Part shown: piece by piece, positions 2,794 through 60,416 of the stretch
How positions within the stretch are numbered: the first letter of the stretch is position 1
Layout of the letters: every line of letters begins with the position of its first letter
Notes under the pieces: model-generated
Seen by the model: the letters and a program-made list of their open reading frames with translations, nothing else
Told to the model about the DNA's origin: nothing
Database searches by the model: none
Position numbers and translations under genes: made by a program
Assembly: GCA_002238945.1 (NCBI GenBank)
Contig: MPNI01000004.1
Location: 1-64,000, forward strand
DNA: 64,000 nucleotides
Origin: Proteobacteria bacterium bin106
Lineage (GTDB): Bacteria > Bdellovibrionota_B > Oligoflexia > Oligoflexales > Bin106
Direction: 5' to 3'

Positions 2794-3657
2794 ATGGCAC
2801 ATATTTTGGCTATTTCCAATCAAAAAGGCGGTGTGGGAAAAACCACTACAGCTGTGAATTTAGCAGCTAGCATAGCAGCATCAGAGCGGCGTGTGTTGTT
2901 GGTGGATTTGGATCCTCAATCCAATGCTAGTTCTGGTTTAGGTGTTTTTGAAACAGACATTAATAAAGATATGTATCACGTGTTGGTAGATGAATGTCCC
3001 CTTTCTGAGGTTATTGTCCACAGTGAGTTGGAATATCTTGATGTGGCTCCAGCCTCTCAAGATCTTATTGGTTCTGAGGTGGAGTTGGTGTCCGTGATTG
3101 GTAGGGAGGTGCGCTTACAAGAGGCTTTAGAGTCATATAAAATGCATTACGCTTATATCATCATCGATTGTCCTCCTGCCCTTGGTCTTTTAACGGTTAA
3201 TGCTTTAACAGCAGCGGATAGTGTCTTGATTCCCTTGCAAACAGAATATTATGCTTTGGAGGGATTATCTCAGTTGATGAAAACCATCGCCTTGATTCAA
3301 AAGCGTTTGAATCCTCGCCTGGATGTTGAAGGTATTCTCTTGACTATGTTTGATAAGCGTAATCGGTTATGCCAAGATGTTGAGCGTGACGTACGCAAAG
3401 CTTTTCAAGATAAAGTGTTTCCTGTGGTGGTGCCTCGTAATGTCAAGCTTTCGGAAGCTCCTTCTTATGGCAAACCTTGTCTTCTTTATGATGTATCTAG
3501 CAAGGGAGCTTTGAGCTATTTGGAATTAGCTCGTTTGTTGATAGTGCGTCATGATTCTGCAGAGAGTCCTTCTAACGGCTCCACAGGAGAGTCTTCTGCT
3601 GCTTCTTCTGTGGTGTCATCTCAGGTCCCTTCTACTCATAGCGAAAGGAGAGTGTGA
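2794..3657 (+). CDS. parA: Chromosome partitioning ATPase ParA/Soj
   Basis: Deviant Walker A KGGVGKTTTAVNLAA, DLDPQSNASSGLG, DCPPALGLLTVNAL. Confidence 0.95.
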   Translation: MAHILAISNQKGGVGKTTTAVNLAASIAASERRVLLVDLDPQSNASSGLGVFETDINKDMYHVLVDECPLSEVIVHSELEYLDVAPASQDLIGSEVELVSVIGREVRLQEALESYKMHYAYIIIDCPPALGLLTVNALTAADSVLIPLQTEYYALEGLSQLMKTIALIQKRLNPRLDVEGILLTMFDKRNRLCQDVERDVRKAFQDKVFPVVVPRNVKLSEAPSYGKPCLLYDVSSKGALSYLELARLLIVRHDSAESPSNGSTGESSAASSVVSSQVPSTHSERRV

Positions 3658-4595
3658 TGCAAGGATCACAAAAGCATCGGAAGTCAGGGCTGGGCCGAGG
3701 AATAGAAGCTTTGCTTGGAGAAGAAGATGTGAGTCGTACGATACGTGGTGCTAGTAAACGTGATGTTTCTGCAGCGGGTGGTCTGCCGTCATCGCCTCTT
3801 AAGGAGGTGGATATTCGTCTTGTGGCACCTAATCCCCAACAGCCACGTAAACATTTTAGTGCCCAAGAGCTCTCGGAGTTGGCTTCTAGTATTCGTCGTG
3901 ATGGTGTGTTGCAGCCTATTGTGGTAACGAAACAGCGCAATGTTTATTATGTGGTGGCAGGTGAGCGCCGTTTGCGTGCTGCAAAGGAAGCGGGGCTGAG
4001 CACGGTACCGGTGCTGATTAAAAAAGGTGTTAGTGATCGTGATCGCTTGCGGTTAGCTCTTGTGGAAAATATTCAGCGTTCCAATTTGAATATTTTTGAA
4101 GAAGCTTTGGCGTATAAGAGTCTGATGGAAAACTTTGCTCTTTCTCAGTCAGAGTGTGGAGAGTTGGTGGGTAAAAACCGTTCTACGGTGGCTAATGCCA
4201 TTCGCATGTTGGACTTACCGGCTCCTTTGCATAACGACATTGTTTCGGGTGTGATTTCAACGGGGCATGCGCGAGCGTTGTTGTCACTGCCTACAGCTGA
4301 TCAGCAGCTGGAGGTGGCTGATTTGGTTAAAGAGCGCAAAATGACCGTGCGTGACACAGAGGATATGTGTCGGGGCAAGAAAAACCAAAAACGTGCTCCT
4401 TATAAGCGCCGTGGTGTTTCTGGTGCTGCTGTGGATCCCAATATTCAACGGATGGCAGATCATCTTCGCGAGAGTTTGGCCACTAAGGTAAAGATTGCTG
4501 GCAGTAGTGAAAAGGGCATTATTGAATTGCATTACTATTCGGCTGAGGAGCTTCAGCGTCTTGTTGGGTGTATGGGTGTGAATTTTGAGTTGTAG
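3657..4595 (+). CDS. parB: Chromosome partitioning protein ParB/Spo0J
   Basis: NPQQPRKHF, GERRLRAAKEAG, LVENIQRSNLNIFEEA; TGATG overlap with parA. Confidence 0.95.
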   Translation: MQGSQKHRKSGLGRGIEALLGEEDVSRTIRGASKRDVSAAGGLPSSPLKEVDIRLVAPNPQQPRKHFSAQELSELASSIRRDGVLQPIVVTKQRNVYYVVAGERRLRAAKEAGLSTVPVLIKKGVSDRDRLRLALVENIQRSNLNIFEEALAYKSLMENFALSQSECGELVGKNRSTVANAIRMLDLPAPLHNDIVSGVISTGHARALLSLPTADQQLEVADLVKERKMTVRDTEDMCRGKKNQKRAPYKRRGVSGAAVDPNIQRMADHLRESLATKVKIAGSSEKGIIELHYYSAEELQRLVGCMGVNFEL

Positions 4596-6310: not shown

Positions 6311-7870
6311 ATGAAAGAAATCCAGGTGGATGAAGTCAGGCAAGTGATTGCAGAGAAGATTCGTTCATTTCAGCATGATGTGGATATACAAGAAACCGGA
6401 GCGGTATTGGTAGTGGGTGATGGAGTGGCTCATATCTATGGCTTGGAAAGAGTCATGGTGGGTGAGCTTGTGGAATTCTTTGGTAGTACCTCTGGTAACA
6501 CAGCGAGTCACACAGCGAGTCACACAGCGAGTCACACAAGAGGTGTGGTATTGAGTCTTGAAGAGAATTATGTGGGTGTGGCGGTGTTAGGTGATAAAGC
6601 TGCCGTGAAAGAAGGAGATCAAGTTAGGCGTTTAAAAACCATCAACTCGGTACCGGTAGGAGAGGGTTTGCTTGGTCGTGTGATTGATGCTGCTGGTGAG
6701 CCACTGGATGGTAAGGGGGCTATTGAGGCTGTAACTCATGCAACTGTGGAGGTGAAAGCTCCTGGTATTATTCAAAGACAATCGGTTCATGAGCCACTTC
6801 AGACTGGTTTAAAGTGTGTGGATTCCATGGTTCCTATTGGTCGTGGCCAAAGGGAGTTGATTATGGGCGATCGCCAAACCGGTAAAACAGCTATTGCTAT
6901 TGACACCATATTGAATCAAAAAGGCAAAGATGTAGTGTGTGTTTATGTGGCTATTGGTCAAAAGCGCTCTACGGTTGCTCAAATCGTTGACCGTCTTGCT
7001 GCTGCTGACTCAATGGATTACACCATTGTTGTTTCCGCTCCTTCTACGGATCCAGCGGCTATGCAGTTTTTGGCTCCTTATGCTGGGGTAGCTGTTGCTG
7101 AATGGTTTATGCAGCAAGGTAGGCATTGTTTGGTGGTTTATGATGATCTTTCTAAGCAGGCTGTTGCGTATCGTGAATTGTCTTTATTGTTGAGGCGTTC
7201 TCCGGGTCGAGAGGCTTATCCTGGTGATGTTTTTTACATTCATTCCCGTCTTCTGGAAAGGGCTTGCAAGCTTTCTGATGATCTTGGTGCGGGTTCTATT
7301 ACGGCATTGCCTATTGTGGAAACACAGGCAGGTGATATTTCAGCTTACGTTCCTACCAATGTGATATCCATCACCGATGGTCAGATCTTTTTGGAGTCGG
7401 ATTTGTTTTTTTCAGGTATCCGTCCTGCTATTAATGCTGGGCAGTCGGTATCACGGGTGGGTGGTTCGGCACAGATTCCGGCTATGAAAAAAGTTTCTGG
7501 GACGGTGCGTTTAGAGTTGGCTCAGTATCGAGAATTAGCTGCTTTTGCTCAGTTTGGTTCGGATCTTGATGTAGCTACTCAAAAAACCCTTAAGCGTGGT
7601 GAAGTGTTAGTGGAAATATTGAAGCAGTCTCAATACAGTCCTTTAGAGGTAGGTTTGCAGGTTGCTACCCTTTATGCGGCAACTCAGGGGTATTTAGATG
7701 AGTATGAGGTATCTTCTTTGAAAGGTTATGAGGTAGGCCTTCATGCCTTGCTTGCTGAAGAGCATGCTGCTTGGTTGGCTCAGGTGGCTGGTGGTGCGAA
7801 ATTGTCAGGTGATTTAGAAACCGAATTGCGCAATGTATTGGATGCTTATAAAGAGAGGTTTACGGCTTAG
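6311..7870 (+). CDS. atpA: F0F1 ATP synthase subunit alpha
   Basis: [53 protein letters not shown]. Confidence 0.98.
6499..6538. repeat. 12-bp tandem repeat (cacagcgagtca) x3 plus partial, in frame inside atpA
   Basis: Encodes [14 protein letters not shown]. Confidence 0.95.
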
Positions 7871-14763: not shown

Positions 14764-15132
14764 TTATTTACCGCAAGCTCTGCGAATATCTATGGGTGAT
14801 TGATAGTCGTATGCTCTTGGATCTGTTTTGAAACGACTTTTATTGCGAAATTTTGCAAGCATTTCTGACTTAATGGTTAGTTTTTTGTTGATGAGTCGGT
14901 TTCTATCACATAGTACTCCGGCTGTGATGTTTGTTGTGCTGCGTTGCATCATTATATAAGTCATACCTTGTTCAAGATCATAAGATTTATCGTGAGCACT
15001 CAGCTTTGCACCTTTAGCTGGAATGCCTACAACATCAATGCGTTGTGTAAAGCTGATACCGTCTGTTGATACACAACTAGTGGTGAGTATCATAGTTAAA
15101 ATAGCAAAGCTTTTGATGAGACCGCCTATCAT
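14764..15132 (-). CDS. Small predicted lipoprotein
   Basis: MIGGLIKSFAILTMILTTSC lipobox. Confidence 0.55.
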   Translation of the reverse strand: MIGGLIKSFAILTMILTTSCVSTDGISFTQRIDVVGIPAKGAKLSAHDKSYDLEQGMTYIMMQRSTTNITAGVLCDRNRLINKKLTIKSEMLAKFRNKSRFKTDPRAYDYQSPIDIRRACGK

Positions 15133-15370: not shown

Positions 15371-15889
15371 CTAAAACAATCCACTGCAATGTTTTTTGAC
15401 GTTTTGTTCTGCTGCAGAAAGCTTTGTTTTGGCGTTGTTTTCTGCGGTATTTAAGTACCCAAGTGCGTTTTGTGCTGCTTGTGGCTTTTTTCCCGGATAT
15501 AACCCATATCCACTGGCACTATGGACTGCGCTTAGATCGTCGCATAATGGATCAATGATGTTGTATGCTTCACCAGTCCATTTACCTAGACTCCAATCAA
15601 TGTCTTTCATATAGCCGAGTTGTTTTCTGCTACAAAAAGAGCTTGCAGCTCCTACATCTTGACCATTGGCGTAATTTTTCATGCGTGTAAGGTCATCTAG
15701 AAGTGAGAGAAGATCTTTATTTGTCTCTTTAGCTTTTTTACAATCAGTGGTATCGCTGTCTGCAACCTCTAAAGATCCTGATGTGTCTACCGCTTGCCCT
15801 GCCCCACAGTTAGTAGGCAAAAAGAGGAAAGGAATAAACAACAGCGGTTGTAGTTTTGTAAGAGGGTTCTCGCAAGATCTAAGGGTCAT
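15371..15889 (-). CDS. Predicted lipoprotein, family A paralog
   Basis: FLFLPTNCGAG lipobox; shares C-K...NxDLLSLLxxxxxMKxY...C...YNIIxxLCxDL with 16654, 17435 and 18495 genes; ATGA overlap with the upstream frame. Confidence 0.6.
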   Translation of the reverse strand: MTLRSCENPLTKLQPLLFIPFLFLPTNCGAGQAVDTSGSLEVADSDTTDCKKAKETNKDLLSLLDDLTRMKNYANGQDVGAASSFCSRKQLGYMKDIDWSLGKWTGEAYNIIDPLCDDLSAVHSASGYGLYPGKKPQAAQNALGYLNTAENNAKTKLSAAEQNVKKHCSGLF

Positions 15890-16366
15890 GATTGACATTT
15901 CCCCCCTAGACTTACTGGCTCGCTATAATCCCAACCAGAGTTTGTGACGCCATCGACGACCCACCCTGGAATACCGCCCCAGACAAGATTACCTAGAAGG
16001 AACCAAAGGCTAGGGACTGTTCTTAGGACTACAGGATCTTTTGTCTTTTTCTTACTTCGTTTGGATTGTTTAGAAGAACAAATAACAGAGGCAGCCACAT
16101 TAGCGCGACTTCTTTTGAGGATGATCTGGTTCATGCCCGGATCAAGATCAAAAGTACCATAAGGTGTTTTAAGGGATTCAGCAGTTTCAGGGACATCGAA
16201 AATTTCGACGGTTTGATGTCTATCTAGAACGATAGTTGCGCAGCTGGAGAGTAGTAATGCTGCTGGAAAGATAGCTAAAGCTGAAAGATGGTTCTTGGTT
16301 CTTGGTTCTTGGTTCTTGGTTCTTGGTTCTTGGTTCTTGGTTCTTGGTTCTTGGTTCTTGGTTCAT
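15886..16366 (-). pseudogene. Predicted lipoprotein, frame-disrupted (phase OFF) by 10 copies of a 7-bp repeat; family B paralog of 21866-22864
   Basis: Frame encoding ...SALAIFPAALLLSSCATIVLDRHQTVEIFD...SLWFLLGNLVWGGIPGWVVDGVTNSGWDYSEPVSLGGKCQS is open downstream of the repeat; ATG at 16366 reads MNQEPRTKNQEPRTK... and stops at 16222-16220. Confidence 0.75.
16292..16361. repeat. 7-bp tandem repeat (ttcttgg) x10
   Basis: Ten exact copies, directly after the minus-strand ATG at 16366-16364. Confidence 0.97.
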
Positions 16367-16653
16367 AGAAGTGTCCTTGTCTGGTGCCATAAATAATACA
16401 ATATAGTAGATGTCAAGCGTTTTTCGTCAGGGCTGTTTGATTCTTTAGTTGTATGGTTATTATTTTGTTATGACTGTGGTTGTCATAGTCTTTTTGTGCG
16501 TTTTTCACAACGTAGATACAAGAAGGGTATAAGAGGTGGTTTTTAGCTAAGTATAGTAGCTAAGTCACTAAGAAAAATAAGCACTTGATTGGGTTTTAGA
16601 AAATGGAATAGATGCTAAAGTATGTTATCGTCCGAATCTATGAGCTACTAGGG

Positions 16654-17911: not shown

Positions 17912-18230
17912 AGTTAGGTGTCTTTTCTGTAGTTGCAGTTATGGATTAACATAATTCATTAAATCATGTGTTTTTTGATATGGGTATGGTTATTCTTTAG
18001 TTAGTACTGTTACCTACTTGTGAGCATGTATGTGTTTTAGGGTGGGTGGCTGTGAGAATAGTTTTATTCTCAGTTACAGTGGTGTACCACTGTAACATGA
18101 AATTATCAAGCTAGTTGTGTGTATATGAGCGGTAGTGGTAGCTAAGGAGCGTAGTGGTTTGTCTTAAAACAAGGGATAAGTCACGTATTTTGGTGAAAAG
18201 AGGAGGGCAGAGATCAATGATGTTGTATGT

Positions 18231-18480
18231 TTTATAATCTCATTGCTTGAGACTCTAAATCATATTTCTCATATAGCGTAGCTTTTTAGAAACATAATAA
18301 GATTTTGCTGCATTCGCATCTTGAGCGTTGATGAAAGTTTTTATGCTTTCGATGTCTTTGATAAGTGAGAGGATTGTCTCTTGAGTTTTTCTGTTTTGTC
18401 TTAAAAGCTTTGCCCCAGTGATTGAACACATGTGACTAGCACTAAATGTACTAGATGTACTAGCGTTAAATGTAAGCGTG
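18231..18480 (-). pseudogene. Degraded family A lipoprotein remnant
   Basis: Nucleotide similarity to 16840-17000, e.g. tgttgtatgttttataatc, cacaataagattctgc-like and gataagtgagag segments; no intact ORF. Confidence 0.5.
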
Positions 18481-21865: not shown

Positions 21866-22864
21866 ATGATGGGGAACGGGGCTGTGAAAAAATGTGTTCG
21901 TTTTAGAGGTAGGATGTATGTTTTTTATTGCTGTAGTGGCTTTATTGCTGTAGTGGCTTTATTGTGTGTCAGTGGTTGTGCCACAATTATATTAAGTGAT
22001 AGAGATGAGGTTGCGGTGGTTGCTGATCCTCAGCGTAAGGTTCTATTGAACACGCCATCGGGCTCGTTTCCTATTAAGGGATCTACTACGGTGTCTTTGT
22101 GGCGTAGCCGTAGTAATGTTTATGCTTCGGTGATCTGTGAGAGTGGTAAAAGAGAGCAATTGATTCTTTTCACTCATCTTAATGTTCAGTTTTGGCTTGG
22201 TAATCTGTTTTCTTGGGGAGGACTAGGCTGGCTGGTTGATGGTTTTGGTAATGCTGGCTGGAGTTATAGTGACCCCATCAATTTAGCCCATTATTGTAGT
22301 GGACGAGATAGTAAAAGGCCTCGTACTGGCTTTAAGTCAGAAGGTGCTGCTACTTTTAATTACAAAGATGCAAACGAACAAGTGAAGAAGTTGAAATACA
22401 ACAGCCGTTGTAAGCAAGGCGGTAAAAAACGTGTCGCTTGGGAGGTAATGGAGTATAAGGATAAGTTTGGTGATAACAGTGGTAATAGAGCTCTACGTAC
22501 CAAAAAATCATTAAATGGCTCGTTTAGTAATTCAGCTACGAGTAATTCAAAGCTTACTGTGTTGCTAGCTGTAAATTCTAGTAGTGAGATAGATATTATG
22601 CTGTTTGAGTATGGTAAGTATTCGGTTAAGGACAGTAATAACTTTGATGTGGATATCAAAGTTGCCGGAGTTGAAACAGAGCTCTTTGGTCGGAATGATT
22701 CCGATCGAATTACTTTAAATGAATCTTCCTCGGAGGTACTTCATACTTATTTGAGAAGTGATCACCGTATTAAATTTTTTATAACGGATGGTTCTTCAAC
22801 CTATACATTTGAGTTAAAATCCTGTCATGGTTATGGCTATATGTATAAAAAGCAAGCGCTATAA
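21866..22864 (+). CDS. Predicted lipoprotein, family B, with additional C-terminal domain
   Basis: LLCVSGCATIILSD lipobox; FWLGNLFSWGGLGWLVDGFGNAGWSYSDPINL; C-terminal domain shared with 23002-23613. Confidence 0.7.
   Translation: MMGNGAVKKCVRFRGRMYVFYCCSGFIAVVALLCVSGCATIILSDRDEVAVVADPQRKVLLNTPSGSFPIKGSTTVSLWRSRSNVYASVICESGKREQLILFTHLNVQFWLGNLFSWGGLGWLVDGFGNAGWSYSDPINLAHYCSGRDSKRPRTGFKSEGAATFNYKDANEQVKKLKYNSRCKQGGKKRVAWEVMEYKDKFGDNSGNRALRTKKSLNGSFSNSATSNSKLTVLLAVNSSSEIDIMLFEYGKYSVKDSNNFDVDIKVAGVETELFGRNDSDRITLNESSSEVLHTYLRSDHRIKFFITDGSSTYTFELKSCHGYGYMYKKQAL
21925..21964. repeat. 17-bp tandem duplication (ttattgctgtagtggct x2 plus ttattg) in the signal peptide of a lipoprotein
   Basis: Exact copies at 21925-21941 and 21942-21958. 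Confidence 0.95.
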
Positions 22865-36030: not shown

Positions 36031-36349
36031 GGTTTGTGGTTCTCTTTATGGTTATGTAGGGAGAGGTCCGTTGAGTACATGAACAGAAACATTCCATCCA
36101 GTTTAAGGAACACTCTTCATATAAAACGGTACTTTTCGCCTGTAACTTTAGGGGTTTATCTGTGGCGTTATCGAAGCAGCTCTCATGAGCTGCTTTTTTG
36201 CTGTATATTAAAGAGATCTCTTTAATACTTGAAGAGAGGCTAGCTAGGGCTAGAAACCAGCTTAAAAAGCGTTTATAATAGTCTGAGTTCTCGTGATGAA
36301 CATGGATCATTACATTAAGACGAGTTTGGAAGACTCATCGATCGATAGT

Positions 36350-36404
36350 TTATGGATAGCTTATAGATAGCTTATAGATAGCTTATAGATAGCTTATAGA
36401 TAGA
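36350..36404. repeat. 11-bp tandem repeat (ttatagatagc), about 5 copies upstream of fur
   Basis: ttatggatagc then ttatagatagc x3 plus diverged last copy. Confidence 0.92.
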
Positions 36405-36449: not shown

Positions 36450-36923
36450 ATGGATCCTAATCAGAACGCTCATGAGTGGGTTTGGCAAAAACTGGGTACA
36501 TATCTGAGCGATCATGATTGTAAAGATACGCAACCACGTCGGACCATCATCGAATACTTCCTCAATCATCCTGATCAACAGCATGTGAGTGCTGAGCAAG
36601 TTCATCAGTCACTCAAAGATCAAGGACATAAGCTAGGGCTTGCCACAGTGTATCGTTCTTTGAACCTGCTTGTGGATGCAGATATTCTTGAACAACATCA
36701 TTTTCAAAATGACAAAGCGGTTTATGAGCTCAAGTATCCTGAGGGCCATCATGATCATCTTGTATGTCTTGATTGTGGAGACATCAAAGAATTTGAAGAT
36801 GAATACATTGAAGAGCGTCAACAGGAGATAGCGATGAAACTCGGCTTTGATCTTGCTTCTCATCGTCTTGAACTTTTTGGTCATTGCAAACAAAAAAGCT
36901 GCCCATCAAAAACCTCTTCTTAA
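36450..36923 (+). CDS. fur: Ferric uptake regulator family protein
   Basis: TQPRRTIIEYFLNHPDQQHVSAEQVHQSL, LGLATVYRSLNLLVDADIL, HHDHLVCLDCGDIKEFED. Confidence 0.92.
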   Translation: MDPNQNAHEWVWQKLGTYLSDHDCKDTQPRRTIIEYFLNHPDQQHVSAEQVHQSLKDQGHKLGLATVYRSLNLLVDADILEQHHFQNDKAVYELKYPEGHHDHLVCLDCGDIKEFEDEYIEERQQEIAMKLGFDLASHRLELFGHCKQKSCPSKTSS

Positions 36924-49823: not shown

Positions 49824-50945
49824 TTATTCTTCAGCGTGTAGAGCTTCAACAAATACTTTAAAAAATCTTTTCATGATGTAGTAGTCATCTTGTCTGATTT
49901 CTTCTAAATCAGCGTGAGGTTTTCTATAGTTCATAGAGGAGGATACGTGGTGTCTCCCATCAGAAAATGAATTATAGAGGGTTCTTTGCACATGATTATC
50001 ATAATAGCTAGTGCGAGTTCCATGGTGGTAGGGTGTTCGGTTGTTGCTCCGCTCTTTGAGTACTTGACTCGGAAGAGTGTTTTCAAATACCTCGTAGTTA
50101 GCAAATTTAGCAAAAGCTCGAACTCCGTGGTTGTTTAGTTTAAAAACAGTAGTTTTAAGTGGAGGTTCTTTATTTACGTAAAATGTTACTTGAATAGTAG
50201 AGGGATCTGCTTTTGTTGCAGCCTCTTGTAATATTTTTTCTAATTTTCCACCTTTTGATAAATCAGGGTGAGAAATATGTAGATAATCCAGATGTTCACT
50301 GCTCATATTTAGGGTTAATCCTTCTTTTAGTTTCCAAGACCAGCCCCAAACCTGTGGTTTACCACCACCTGATGGAGAGTCTACACTATACGTAACATAA
50401 AGAGACACAGATGTATATTTAGCAGAACAATATTTTAAATCTCCAAAACGATATCCATTAATTTGAAAATATCTACGGTCATTATTGTCACTATAAGAAG
50501 AGTCTTGGTATCCACTAAAATTGCGGCTATTAGTATCAGTGTAATCTTTAATACACTCTTGGCTCTTATAATACGGTGTTACTGCTGATATAACGCTTTC
50601 TTTGTTTTCGGCTTTTTTTTCTAAATCCTCCTCATCTTCGGGCCCTGTTGCTATACCGATTACTACAGTGCTAAGGAGATCAAGGATACCTCCGCTAAAC
50701 ATCTGAAATTTTGGTGAGGTATTGCTTACTTGAGGACTACTAAGAGAGGCAAGACGTTCTATGTCTTGCTTTATTAAGTCGTCCACTTCATCAGATGAAG
50801 AAACATCTGATTGTTGGCGTTGCATCGCTGTATCTTTGTTGCAACTCATAAAAAACAAGCTAGCAAAAATGAGATAAGTAATGGTGTTTAATATAGGTTC
50901 TGATAAAAATGTGTTTTTTCTATCTTTGGTTCTTGCAGAAATCAT
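49824..50945 (-). CDS. Predicted lipoprotein, family C paralog 1
   Basis: NTITYLIFASLFFMSCNKD lipobox; C-terminal YYIMKRFFKVFVEALHAEE. Confidence 0.68.
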   Translation of the reverse strand: MISARTKDRKNTFLSEPILNTITYLIFASLFFMSCNKDTAMQRQQSDVSSSDEVDDLIKQDIERLASLSSPQVSNTSPKFQMFSGGILDLLSTVVIGIATGPEDEEDLEKKAENKESVISAVTPYYKSQECIKDYTDTNSRNFSGYQDSSYSDNNDRRYFQINGYRFGDLKYCSAKYTSVSLYVTYSVDSPSGGGKPQVWGWSWKLKEGLTLNMSSEHLDYLHISHPDLSKGGKLEKILQEAATKADPSTIQVTFYVNKEPPLKTTVFKLNNHGVRAFAKFANYEVFENTLPSQVLKERSNNRTPYHHGTRTSYYDNHVQRTLYNSFSDGRHHVSSSMNYRKPHADLEEIRQDDYYIMKRFFKVFVEALHAEE

Positions 50946-51607: not shown

Positions 51608-52738
51608 TTATGAACTAGCGTGTAGAGTTTCAACAAACACTCGGAAAAATCTTTTCATTATATGATAGTCGTGTTGTCTGACTATTTTTAAATCAGGATG
51701 AGGCTTTTTATACGTCATCTTGGAATCTAATCTTATAGCTGACGCCCCACCAGAGTGTACAACATTCCATATTACTGTTTGGCGGTAATTATCATAATAT
51801 CTAGAGAGCATTTTACCTTCATCTGGTGTGCTAATTCCAAAAACATCGTAGTTAGCAAATTTAGCGAAAGCTCGAACACCGTGGTTCTCTAGGGTAAAAA
51901 ATTTGGAAGTTGTGGAATTTGTGGAAGTTGTAAACATTTTGCTTTTTTCTTTATATATGCGAAAACTTATTTTTATAGCAGATGGGTCTACTTTTTTTGC
52001 AGCGTACTGTAATAGTCTTTCTAATGCACCACCTTTGGCTAGGTCACGGTGATAAAAATCTAGACCCCCACTTCCTAAGTATACACGGAAGGGTTGCTTA
52101 AACTCTATAGGCCAACCGTAATGACTGACACCATCATGTAATTTAGGATCTACAGGGTACTTTACATAAATGGTTATAGATGTATAGTTAGCACTACAAT
52201 TTTTTACATCACCTAAAAATGATCCCCTGAATCCTCCCGAAAGACCAACGCCGTGGAATAGACTATAAAAAGAAGTATAGCTTACTAAAAACTTGTTTTT
52301 ATCTGCGGAGGGATAATCTTTAATACAGTTATGACTAACAAAATTTTTATATACTGCTGATCTAACGATTTCATTTTCATTGACAGAGCCGGTTTCCTGA
52401 GAGACCATTTTATTTTTGAATAGCTCCGTAGTGTCTCCGACTGCTTGAAGTTTTGGTAAAGTAGTGCTTGATAGTCGTGATCCATCGCTATTAACGAACT
52501 CAAGATTATCTATATCTTTGTTGATTAAGTCGTCTATTGTTATGGTGTCTTCTTCGCTTCCTTTCATTTCCTGACTGGCTGATTGAGAAAGATTTGATTG
52601 TTGGCTTTGTGTCAATTGTTTATTGCCGCAACTCATAAAAAACAAGCTAGCAAGAATTAAGTAAGTGATTGTTATTGATGCGTGTATTGATAAAAATTTA
52701 TTTTTGCTGTTCTCGCTGTTTGTAGAAACCATGAGCAC
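51608..52738 (-). CDS. Predicted lipoprotein, family C paralog 2
   Basis: ITITYLILASLFFMSCGNKQ lipobox; HDYHIMKRFFRVFVETLHASS. Confidence 0.68.
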   Translation of the reverse strand: MLMVSTNSENSKNKFLSIHASITITYLILASLFFMSCGNKQLTQSQQSNLSQSASQEMKGSEEDTITIDDLINKDIDNLEFVNSDGSRLSSTTLPKLQAVGDTTELFKNKMVSQETGSVNENEIVRSAVYKNFVSHNCIKDYPSADKNKFLVSYTSFYSLFHGVGLSGGFRGSFLGDVKNCSANYTSITIYVKYPVDPKLHDGVSHYGWPIEFKQPFRVYLGSGGLDFYHRDLAKGGALERLLQYAAKKVDPSAIKISFRIYKEKSKMFTTSTNSTTSKFFTLENHGVRAFAKFANYDVFGISTPDEGKMLSRYYDNYRQTVIWNVVHSGGASAIRLDSKMTYKKPHPDLKIVRQHDYHIMKRFFRVFVETLHASS

Positions 52739-53870: not shown

Positions 53871-55094
53871 TTAGGAGTGAGCGTTTGCGTTTAGGGCTTC
53901 AACCAATACTCGAAAAAATCTTTTCATTATGAGATAGTCGTACTTTCCTCGTCTTTGAAATGCAGCACGATGGGCATGCTGTACATGATGCATCAATGTG
54001 GAGTGTATTGTCCAAAAAGTAGATGGCGACTTTTGAGATAGAGTTGTCGTAGAGACCTGGTGAGTAGAGTTATCATAATATCTGAAGATATGTTTGCTGC
54101 CTGTTTTTTGGGGCACTGAGCCACTATAAGTTCTGTCAAAAACATTATAATGAGCAAATCTAGCAAAAGTTCGAACTGCTTGGTTATTTAAATTGATTAC
54201 ACTCATAGTTTTGAATGTTTTGTCCTTAGGTATGACAAATTGCATTGTTATAGTAGATGGATCAGCTCTTTTTACAGCCTGCTGTAACATCTTTTCTAAT
54301 GTACCAGTTATCCTTAAAGAAGAGTGTCTTAATTTTAGCCGATTTCTATCATTGTATATAGTAATTAGCTCTCTTTCTTTTTCCATCTCTCGTTTTTCTT
54401 TTCCTAAATATAACCTTGAATACCCTGCTTGATTCACATCTTTATTCTTTTTGTCACCATAGCTGACATAAATAGCTACATATGCATATTTAGAACGACA
54501 TTTTTTCAAATCACCTACATTTTGTGCGACAAAATAACCAGAATAAGTAGCCCGACTATGTCTAAAGTAAGTAAAGTAAGATGCCAGAAAGTCTCTGTTA
54601 CTGAAATACGGGAAGTCTTTAATACAAGTTAAGTTTTGAAAATTTCGACGTACAGCTGATTCTATATTTATATTCTCCTCAGATTCTATATCTTTTTCTA
54701 AATCATTTGTTTGAGAATCAACGAAGCCATCTATAAGGTCTCCACTACCGAATGCTTGAAATTTCGGCAAGGTGTCACTGGATGATGGGTCGCTATTTGC
54801 AGGATCATCCATTTCTTCTTTGAGGAATTCGTTTATCATGTTTGTTACTTCTGTATTCTCTTTCATGTCACTTTCTGATTGAGAGAGATCTGATTGTTGA
54901 CGCTGCATAGAACTATCGTCATTGCAACTTATAAAAAACAAACTAGAAAGAATTAGGTAAGTAGTAGTTTTTAATACATGTGTGGATAAAACTCTCTTCT
55001 CTCTTCTCTCTTCTCTCTTCTCTCTTCTCTCTTTGTTTTTCATAGGCGCCATCGAATACTCCGTGTGTAATGCCATTGTGGTTGGTTTATTCAC
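53871..55094 (-). CDS. Predicted lipoprotein, family C paralog 3, repeat-bearing N-terminus (phase ON)
   Basis: MKNKERREKREERREKRVLSTHVLKTTTYLILSSLFFISCNDD; YDYLIMKRFFRVLVEALNA. Confidence 0.7.
   Translation of the reverse strand: MNKPTTMALHTEYSMAPMKNKERREKREERREKRVLSTHVLKTTTYLILSSLFFISCNDDSSMQRQQSDLSQSESDMKENTEVTNMINEFLKEEMDDPANSDPSSSDTLPKFQAFGSGDLIDGFVDSQTNDLEKDIESEENINIESAVRRNFQNLTCIKDFPYFSNRDFLASYFTYFRHSRATYSGYFVAQNVGDLKKCRSKYAYVAIYVSYGDKKNKDVNQAGYSRLYLGKEKREMEKERELITIYNDRNRLKLRHSSLRITGTLEKMLQQAVKRADPSTITMQFVIPKDKTFKTMSVINLNNQAVRTFARFAHYNVFDRTYSGSVPQKTGSKHIFRYYDNSTHQVSTTTLSQKSPSTFWTIHSTLMHHVQHAHRAAFQRRGKYDYLIMKRFFRVLVEALNANAHS
54992..55033. repeat. 7-bp tandem repeat (ctcttct), 5 exact copies plus partials
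   Basis: Exact copies 54994-55028 with flanking partial units, 8-9 nt inside the ATG at 55043. Confidence 0.95.
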
Positions 55095-59189: not shown

Positions 59190-60074
59190 CTATGGGGTAG
59201 TGTTAGTACTGTCTTTTTCTTGATTTGCTATTTCCTCATTCACGGCTTCTTCGATGCCAGACATTATTGATTTGATGCTCGGATTGCAATGTGAAGATTT
59301 TTTTTTCTCATTGAAGCTATCTAATGTTACTTGTATTTTTCCATCATCTAAGGACAATTGAGGGCTTGAAATCACGCTTGCTCCATTAAAAGTTAATTGA
59401 AAAGTCATATTTGCAACATCACTTGCTTGGAGAGTGCCTCCTGTGGCAGGAACAAGGTGTAAAGAGGTGATATCTTGAAGGCGTAACTGAACCTTATCTG
59501 GAAAGTCTAGTGGCGCACCGCTGCTTTTAAATTGTGTGGAGCGATACTTATTATTAACCAATAATGTCCACTCTCGTTGACTTCTTGCAACACTACCGTG
59601 TAGGTTATGGCGTATGATTTCGCTTTTACGTTTGCAGCTTGCATCTTTAAGAAATGCCGAACTCAGTGGAGCAACAATGGTACAATTTTGGCGTAATGAA
59701 AGTACCGCATCACAAAGCTTTTCATGAGTTAAATCTAAGCGCCTAAATTTCTTCTTCTCATTAGTGTATAAATCCTGGAGTTTTTTAAGATTGAGAGCCA
59801 AGACTTCTTCTGACATATCTTGGGTATCTACTAACTCGATATCTTTGGCTGTTTTTTTCTCATCATCGTCTTCGTCAGTGGTTGTAGCAGAGGCATTCTC
59901 TGTTGAAGTCGTGGGAACAGATAGTGGGAGTGTTGGTGTGTTATTGCTTGGAGATTTGCCGCAAGAAATAGCCACCATGAGCATCGCAGAACAAGCCAGA
60001 GAGCACTTATAGCGCAGATTCTTTTTTGCTATGATGTATAAATGGAATGTCCACATAGTTACTTTATGACTCAT
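59190..60074 (-). CDS. Predicted lipoprotein
   Basis: CSAMLMVAISCGKSPS lipobox. Confidence 0.58.
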   Translation of the reverse strand: MSHKVTMWTFHLYIIAKKNLRYKCSLACSAMLMVAISCGKSPSNNTPTLPLSVPTTSTENASATTTDEDDDEKKTAKDIELVDTQDMSEEVLALNLKKLQDLYTNEKKKFRRLDLTHEKLCDAVLSLRQNCTIVAPLSSAFLKDASCKRKSEIIRHNLHGSVARSQREWTLLVNNKYRSTQFKSSGAPLDFPDKVQLRLQDITSLHLVPATGGTLQASDVANMTFQLTFNGASVISSPQLSLDDGKIQVTLDSFNEKKKSSHCNPSIKSIMSGIEEAVNEEIANQEKDSTNTTP

Positions 60075-60320
60075 TTATTTATATATGGGTACAGACAAAT
60101 AGCAGATAGTATGTGTACGACTTATGTATATAGCTAGTGCTAGTGTATATAGTTAGTGCTAGTGTATATAGCTAGTTTTATAGCCAGTATTCATAGTTAG
60201 AGTTCTATATAACTTAAGATACCGTGATGCTTATCGGTAAAAGCTTTATAGAATATAAGCAAAGCATCTAACTAATTGATATGGTGTAGTTTTTTTTGCA
60301 AAAACACTTAAAAAGATCAA

Positions 60321-60416
60321 GCCATGTTAGGAGCCATGTTAGGAGCCATGTTAGGAGCCATGTCAGGAGCCATGTCAGGAGCCATGTCAGGAGCCATGTC
60401 AGGAGCTATGTTAGAG
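60321..60416. repeat. 12-bp tandem repeat (gccatgttagga / gccatgtcagga) x8
   Basis: Eight adjacent units in two sequence variants (T-type then C-type blocks). Confidence 0.96.

Follow-up and report, generated by a model that had tools for sequence, protein, structure and literature searches.

The stretch analysed here (the window) comprises 64,000 nucleotides (nt) of Proteobacteria bacterium bin106 (contig MPNI01000004.1, positions 1 to 64,000). On its minus strand, positions 15886–16366 hold a small lipoprotein gene in which a tandem array of 7-base-pair (bp) units lies between the start codon and the signal peptide, leaving the two in different reading frames. The elements of this locus are as follows.

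16374–16378, minus strand: Shine–Dalgarno-like AAGGA, 7 nt 5′ of the ATG (sequence, by inspection)
16364–16366, minus strand: ATG that opens the OFF frame (sequence)
16289–16364, minus strand: 7-bp tandem array, 10.9 copies, unit CCAAGAA / AGAACCA (sequence and repeat analysis)
16220–16222, minus strand: TAG closing the ATG frame at ten copies, the OFF state (sequence and translation)
15886–16290, minus strand: otherwise intact lipoprotein frame with hydrophobic (h-) region, lipobox LSSC and mature part (translation and homology)

The core of the array consists of ten perfect CCAAGAA units (TTCTTGG on the plus strand) at 16361–16292, within a periodic stretch of 76 bp with 100% matches. The longest run of matches at a lag of 7 spans 69 bases, compared with a maximum of 10 over 20 simulated windows, which excludes a chance origin of the periodicity. 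Read in frame, the array encodes residues of the KNQEPRT type in the amino-terminal n-region of the signal peptide. The signal peptide itself, NHLSALAIFPAALLLSSC, has a charged n-region, a hydrophobic core and a lipobox ending in cysteine; the call was made by inspection and with a lipobox rule, with no dedicated signal-peptide predictor.

With ten units, translation from the ATG runs for 48 codons and ends at the TAG at 16222–16220. The lipoprotein frame is open for 158 codons, from after a TGA at 16365–16363, which overlaps the ATG, to the TGA at 15888–15886, and contains the lipobox (...FPAALLLSSC). No ATG, GTG or TTG occurs in this frame of the focal gene 5′ of the hydrophobic core. ATG and signal peptide share a frame only when the units number a multiple of three: the predicted product has 157 residues with nine units and 164 with twelve, as against 48 with ten. 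Flanks deprived of every unit likewise join in frame, as would fit an array that grew within an ordinary lipoprotein gene. The array thus sits between initiation codon and gene body, where unit number sets the frame; its unit length is not divisible by three, and its copies exceed the usual threshold for phase-variable tracts, at least three for units of 6–9 bp (PMC5953494). The original prediction, made from the window alone, stood up in all these details: the ten perfect units between ATG 16366 and the signal peptide were verified base for base, the stop of the ATG frame and the TGA ahead of the open lipoprotein frame by translation, and the restoration of the frame by nine or twelve copies, nine giving 157 residues, by frame arithmetic. 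Further upstream, TTGACA at 16416–16411 was noticed by eye; a promoter scan of the focal region listed nothing at that position, and promoter-like sites were fewer than in shuffled sequence.

Homology showed that the downstream frame encodes a real protein. Two paralogues and the adjoining gene lie in the window.

14764–15132, minus strand: array-free paralogue of the focal gene (homology)
21866–22864, plus strand: array-free paralogue of the focal gene (homology, 46% identical over residues 9–133)
15371–15889, minus strand: downstream lipoprotein gene, its ATG overlapping the focal stop (sequence)

The focal frame is open over 134 codons, and its homology to the 21866 paralogue covers residues 9–133. 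The 14764 paralogue is 26% identical, and homologues beyond the window were found at 31% identity in the same order, 29% in the same genus and 18% in the same class. Differences between the focal gene and the 21866 paralogue fall mostly at third codon positions (63, 47 and 89 at positions one to three), and the two proteins have the motif LGN...G-GWxVD in common. Because homologues present this frame as protein, it is, judged by comparison, a real gene for a small lipoprotein. No profile of Pfam or NCBIfam matched the focal protein, and none matched its homologues meaningfully. An AlphaFold2 model built from three sequences reached a mean predicted local distance difference test (pLDDT) score of 48, too low for a fold search.

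A second array occupies the same position in another lipoprotein gene of the window.

54992–55033, minus strand: second 7-bp array, AAGAGAG × 6, keeping the frame (ON) within the signal-peptide n-region (repeat analysis and frame)
53871–55094 (also delimited as 53871–55052), minus strand: lipoprotein gene bearing AAGAGAG × 6 (translation and alignment)
51608–52738, minus strand: paralogue of 53871–55094, no array at the matching site (DNA alignment)
49824–50945, minus strand: paralogue of 53871–55094, no array at the matching site (DNA alignment)

The Shine–Dalgarno sequence, start and signal core are conserved at the DNA level among the three genes, and only 53871–55094 has the array. A profile search of the genome's contigs recovered further relatives of this family. 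Contig C126 carries two tandem genes, each with a tract of nine cytosines (C9) between ATG and hydrophobic core; the gene on contig C16 has a C10 tract and that on contig C137 an interrupted C6AC4 tract. On contig C26, a 10-bp unit repeated 4.3 times follows GAGGAG and an ATG, and this gene is also OFF: its ATG frame ends after 29 codons, and a start codon is lacking in the lipoprotein frame. The two relatives on contig C75 and the one on contig C113 have no tract. The AAGAGAG unit recurs on contig C113, where it lies 8 nt ahead of the start of a different lipoprotein gene. This one genome bears such tracts in several envelope genes, namely 53871–55094, both genes of contig C126, and those of contigs C16 and C26.

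Further lipoprotein loci were noted as well. A 12-bp array of 7.7 copies (60320–60411) lies upstream of the lipoprotein gene 59190–60074. At 18201–18398 on the minus strand, a degraded relic with internal TGA and TAG belongs to the 15371/16654/17435/18495 lipoprotein family. Another member of the 53871 family (L153, G000:C136, 8002–10416, minus strand) has its N- and C-terminal parts about 1.4 kb apart, as if interrupted by an insertion.

To set these loci against the background, repeats and genes were counted in the 1.137 Mb of readable sequence of the 2.59-Mb genome. Arrays whose unit is not a multiple of three fell outside open reading frames in 45 of 51 cases, and on inspection most of the remaining six lay in spurious or mis-started frames; arrays with units that are multiples of three fell inside frames in 41 of 62. 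Lipoproteins made up four of about eight genes with a 5′-end array of at least four copies, compared with 70 of 820 genes overall (Fisher 0.0004, a value that includes one false lipobox); the gene concerned, L057, was rejected as a lipoprotein. Slippage-prone tracts within the head of the reading frame occurred in 3/69 lipoproteins and 1/751 other genes (Fisher p = 0.002; p = 0.02 without the focal gene), counts in which the tract of L132, one of the three, is probably situated a short way 5′ of the true start, and from which the lipobox rule dropped both C9 genes of contig C126. Among the 73 lipoprotein-like signal segments identified in the sampled part of the genome, only two lacked a start codon, those of the focal gene and of a protease gene with homopolymer tracts of its own. 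The recurrence of different tracts at one site in paralogues is a stronger argument than these enrichment tests.

Taken together, we consider slipped-strand mispairing likely, with a probability of about 0.8, to place the lipoprotein gene at 15886–16366 under translational phase variation. The contingency-locus reading first proposed for it gains support from the intact gene, from the placement of the array between Shine–Dalgarno plus ATG and signal peptide, and from the recurrence of such tracts in other lipoprotein genes, one of them also OFF. Mispairing at replication would add or remove 7-bp units in the signal-peptide n-region. With a multiple of three units, a ribosome starting at ATG 16366 would enter the hydrophobic core and lipobox and the lipoprotein would be made; with ten, translation would end at 16222 and no lipoprotein would result. 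Because the n-region can accommodate extra hydrophilic residues, a functional signal peptide would be expected at every multiple of three units. The downstream gene may be affected as well: in the ATGA at 15889–15886 its ATG (15889–15887) overlaps the focal TGA (15888–15886), which suggests translational coupling to the switch, and the OFF state may thus reduce the lipoprotein encoded at 15371–15889. The sequence shows the anatomy of the locus, its frames, the intactness of the gene and the recurrence in paralogues, whereas the rate and reversibility of slippage, the surface exposure of the product and the advantage of switching are inferred.

The closest known architecture is that of autB in Neisseria and Haemophilus, whose signal-sequence DNA carries AAGC repeats immediately 3′ of the start codon and which is OFF in most meningococcal strains (PMC5118866). 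As in the focal gene, an out-of-frame repeat directly follows the ATG in the signal-sequence region of an otherwise intact gene; in contrast, autB has a 4-bp unit, encodes an autotransporter, an unrelated protein of an unrelated organism, and its variation has been demonstrated in isolates and by expression. In Neisseria opa genes, the leader-peptide region contains CTCTT repeats (PMC3960869). There, too, part of the signal peptide is repeat-encoded and several paralogues of one genome bear the repeats, but the 5-bp unit is common to the paralogues and the switching rate was measured, whereas here the units differ between paralogues and switching is deduced from sequence. A mycoplasma surface lipoprotein is switched by a poly-A frameshift (Theiss and Wise 1997, as cited in PMC3711429). 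It resembles the focal gene in being a surface lipoprotein with a frameshift at a slippage-prone tract, and differs in its homopolymer tract, protein and bacterium. The repeats of the HMW adhesins sit in the promoter and tune transcription, whereas the focal array lies inside the reading frame. The 7-bp unit and slippage are common to both, heptameric repeats being mentioned for the HMW adhesins of Haemophilus influenzae in PMC5953494. Heptameric repeats are reported to be over-represented in many bacteria, and not always in connection with phase variation (PMC4692102).

The strongest competing explanation, which we regard as unlikely, is that repeats build up wherever they are tolerated and that a recent slippage of the array, harboured by a dispensable lipoprotein in its permissive n-region, has put the gene out of frame and made it an incipient pseudogene. 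In this genome, many arrays with units that are not multiples of three are intergenic or 5′ of genes read as rpsO, secE, a sigma factor and aroQ, and degraded or interrupted lipoprotein genes are present (18201–18398 and contig C136). Against decay, however, comparison with the homologues revealed no further stop or frameshift in the focal frame, and so none of the downstream inactivating mutations that the original prediction had named as a way for it to fail. Moreover, 7-bp, poly-C and 10-bp tracts share one site in paralogues, most of them in frame, and arrays of this kind are otherwise almost absent from genes. Such diversity of tracts at a single site among paralogues speaks for translational phase variation that has been selected for, as with opa or autB.

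An assembly or consensus error, with a true count of nine (the case that the original prediction had foreseen) or twelve units and a gene that is simply ON, is very improbable. The source is a draft metagenome-assembled genome of 148 contigs, 82% complete, which lends this explanation some weight. However, contig ends in it overlap many times by exactly 127 bp, implying an assembler k of 127, longer than the 76-bp array. Since the array and its flanks fit within one k-mer, a miscount is unlikely, and by the same reasoning the ten-unit allele is probably dominant in the sample. The OFF gene on contig C26, with its different repeat unit, also argues against an error. We give slightly less credence still to the idea that the ten-unit allele is expressed anyway, through an unusual start, ribosomal frameshifting or re-initiation, or that the array is a regulatory 5′ element. 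Arrays at L127, L132 and L031 do lie just upstream of starts and could act only on transcription or initiation. The focal Shine–Dalgarno sequence and ATG, by contrast, are 5′ of the array, after which none of the usual start codons occurs; the array of 53871–55094 falls within the coding frame without disrupting it; and inspection by eye turned up no slippery heptamer of the classical type.

Several observations nevertheless weigh against phase variation at 15886–16366. The genome is rich in short tandem arrays overall, including those with units that are not multiples of three, and some precede housekeeping-like genes, among them those read by eye as rpsO (ribosomal protein S15), secE, a sigma factor and aroQ. 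The enrichment tests are small, involve few genes and used thresholds partly chosen post hoc. One genome per species was examined, with a single unit count per locus, and copy-number variation was not seen. The exact focal repeat unit was absent from 95 relatives, and the exact units of the arrays were likewise absent from relatives. None of the homologues of the focal protein in the window or in same-genus, same-order and same-class genomes carries an array, hence no conserved switch is documented. The focal flank, sought in viral contigs as a source of other alleles, was absent from them.

Further repeats and gene arrangements were recorded outside these families. The protease gene mentioned above (L018, G000:C3, 2972–3172, minus strand) encodes a secreted protein of the Trypsin family (Pfam Trypsin, E = 2.3e-7); its frame has no start codon before the signal core, C7 and T9 tracts at its head and A25 and A17 inside, and it is possibly another switch. 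At L142 (G000:C125, 11087–11120), G15 and T12 adjoin where a minus-strand coding frame appears to shift. GCTTGTG is repeated 8.7 times at L096 (G000:C82, 2876–2936), to which no gene was assigned. In the window, an 11-bp array at 36344–36403, one of many intergenic arrays, precedes a Fur-like gene (36450–36923, named by eye) by about 46 bp, and an in-frame 12-bp repeat falls within the ATP synthase alpha gene (6498–6538). Genes resembling parA and parB are found inside the ATP synthase cluster (2794–4595).

Most of what is known of slippage-driven phase variation comes from host-adapted pathogens. The mechanism is thus already known; what is new is the organism, the lipoprotein families and the mixture of tract types at one site. 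The loci appear to form a set of switches for lipoproteins, some captured in the ON state and others in the OFF state, with several tract types at one site of paralogous genes, and would offer a testable case for the origin of contingency loci. They also serve as a warning that gene callers lose phase-variable genes assembled in the OFF state. More tentatively, and at somewhat less than even odds, the lineage may run a phasome dedicated to lipoproteins. In it, new slippage tracts, whatever their unit (7-bp, 10-bp or poly-C), would be born again and again at a single permissive site, the signal-peptide n-region of expanding lipoprotein families, and selection would act on position, not on repeat sequence. 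Because AAGAGAG × 6, two C9 tracts, C10 and the 10-bp unit × 4.3 occupy the matching site in other lipoprotein genes, the population probably displays a shifting mosaic of surface lipoproteins, switched at random.
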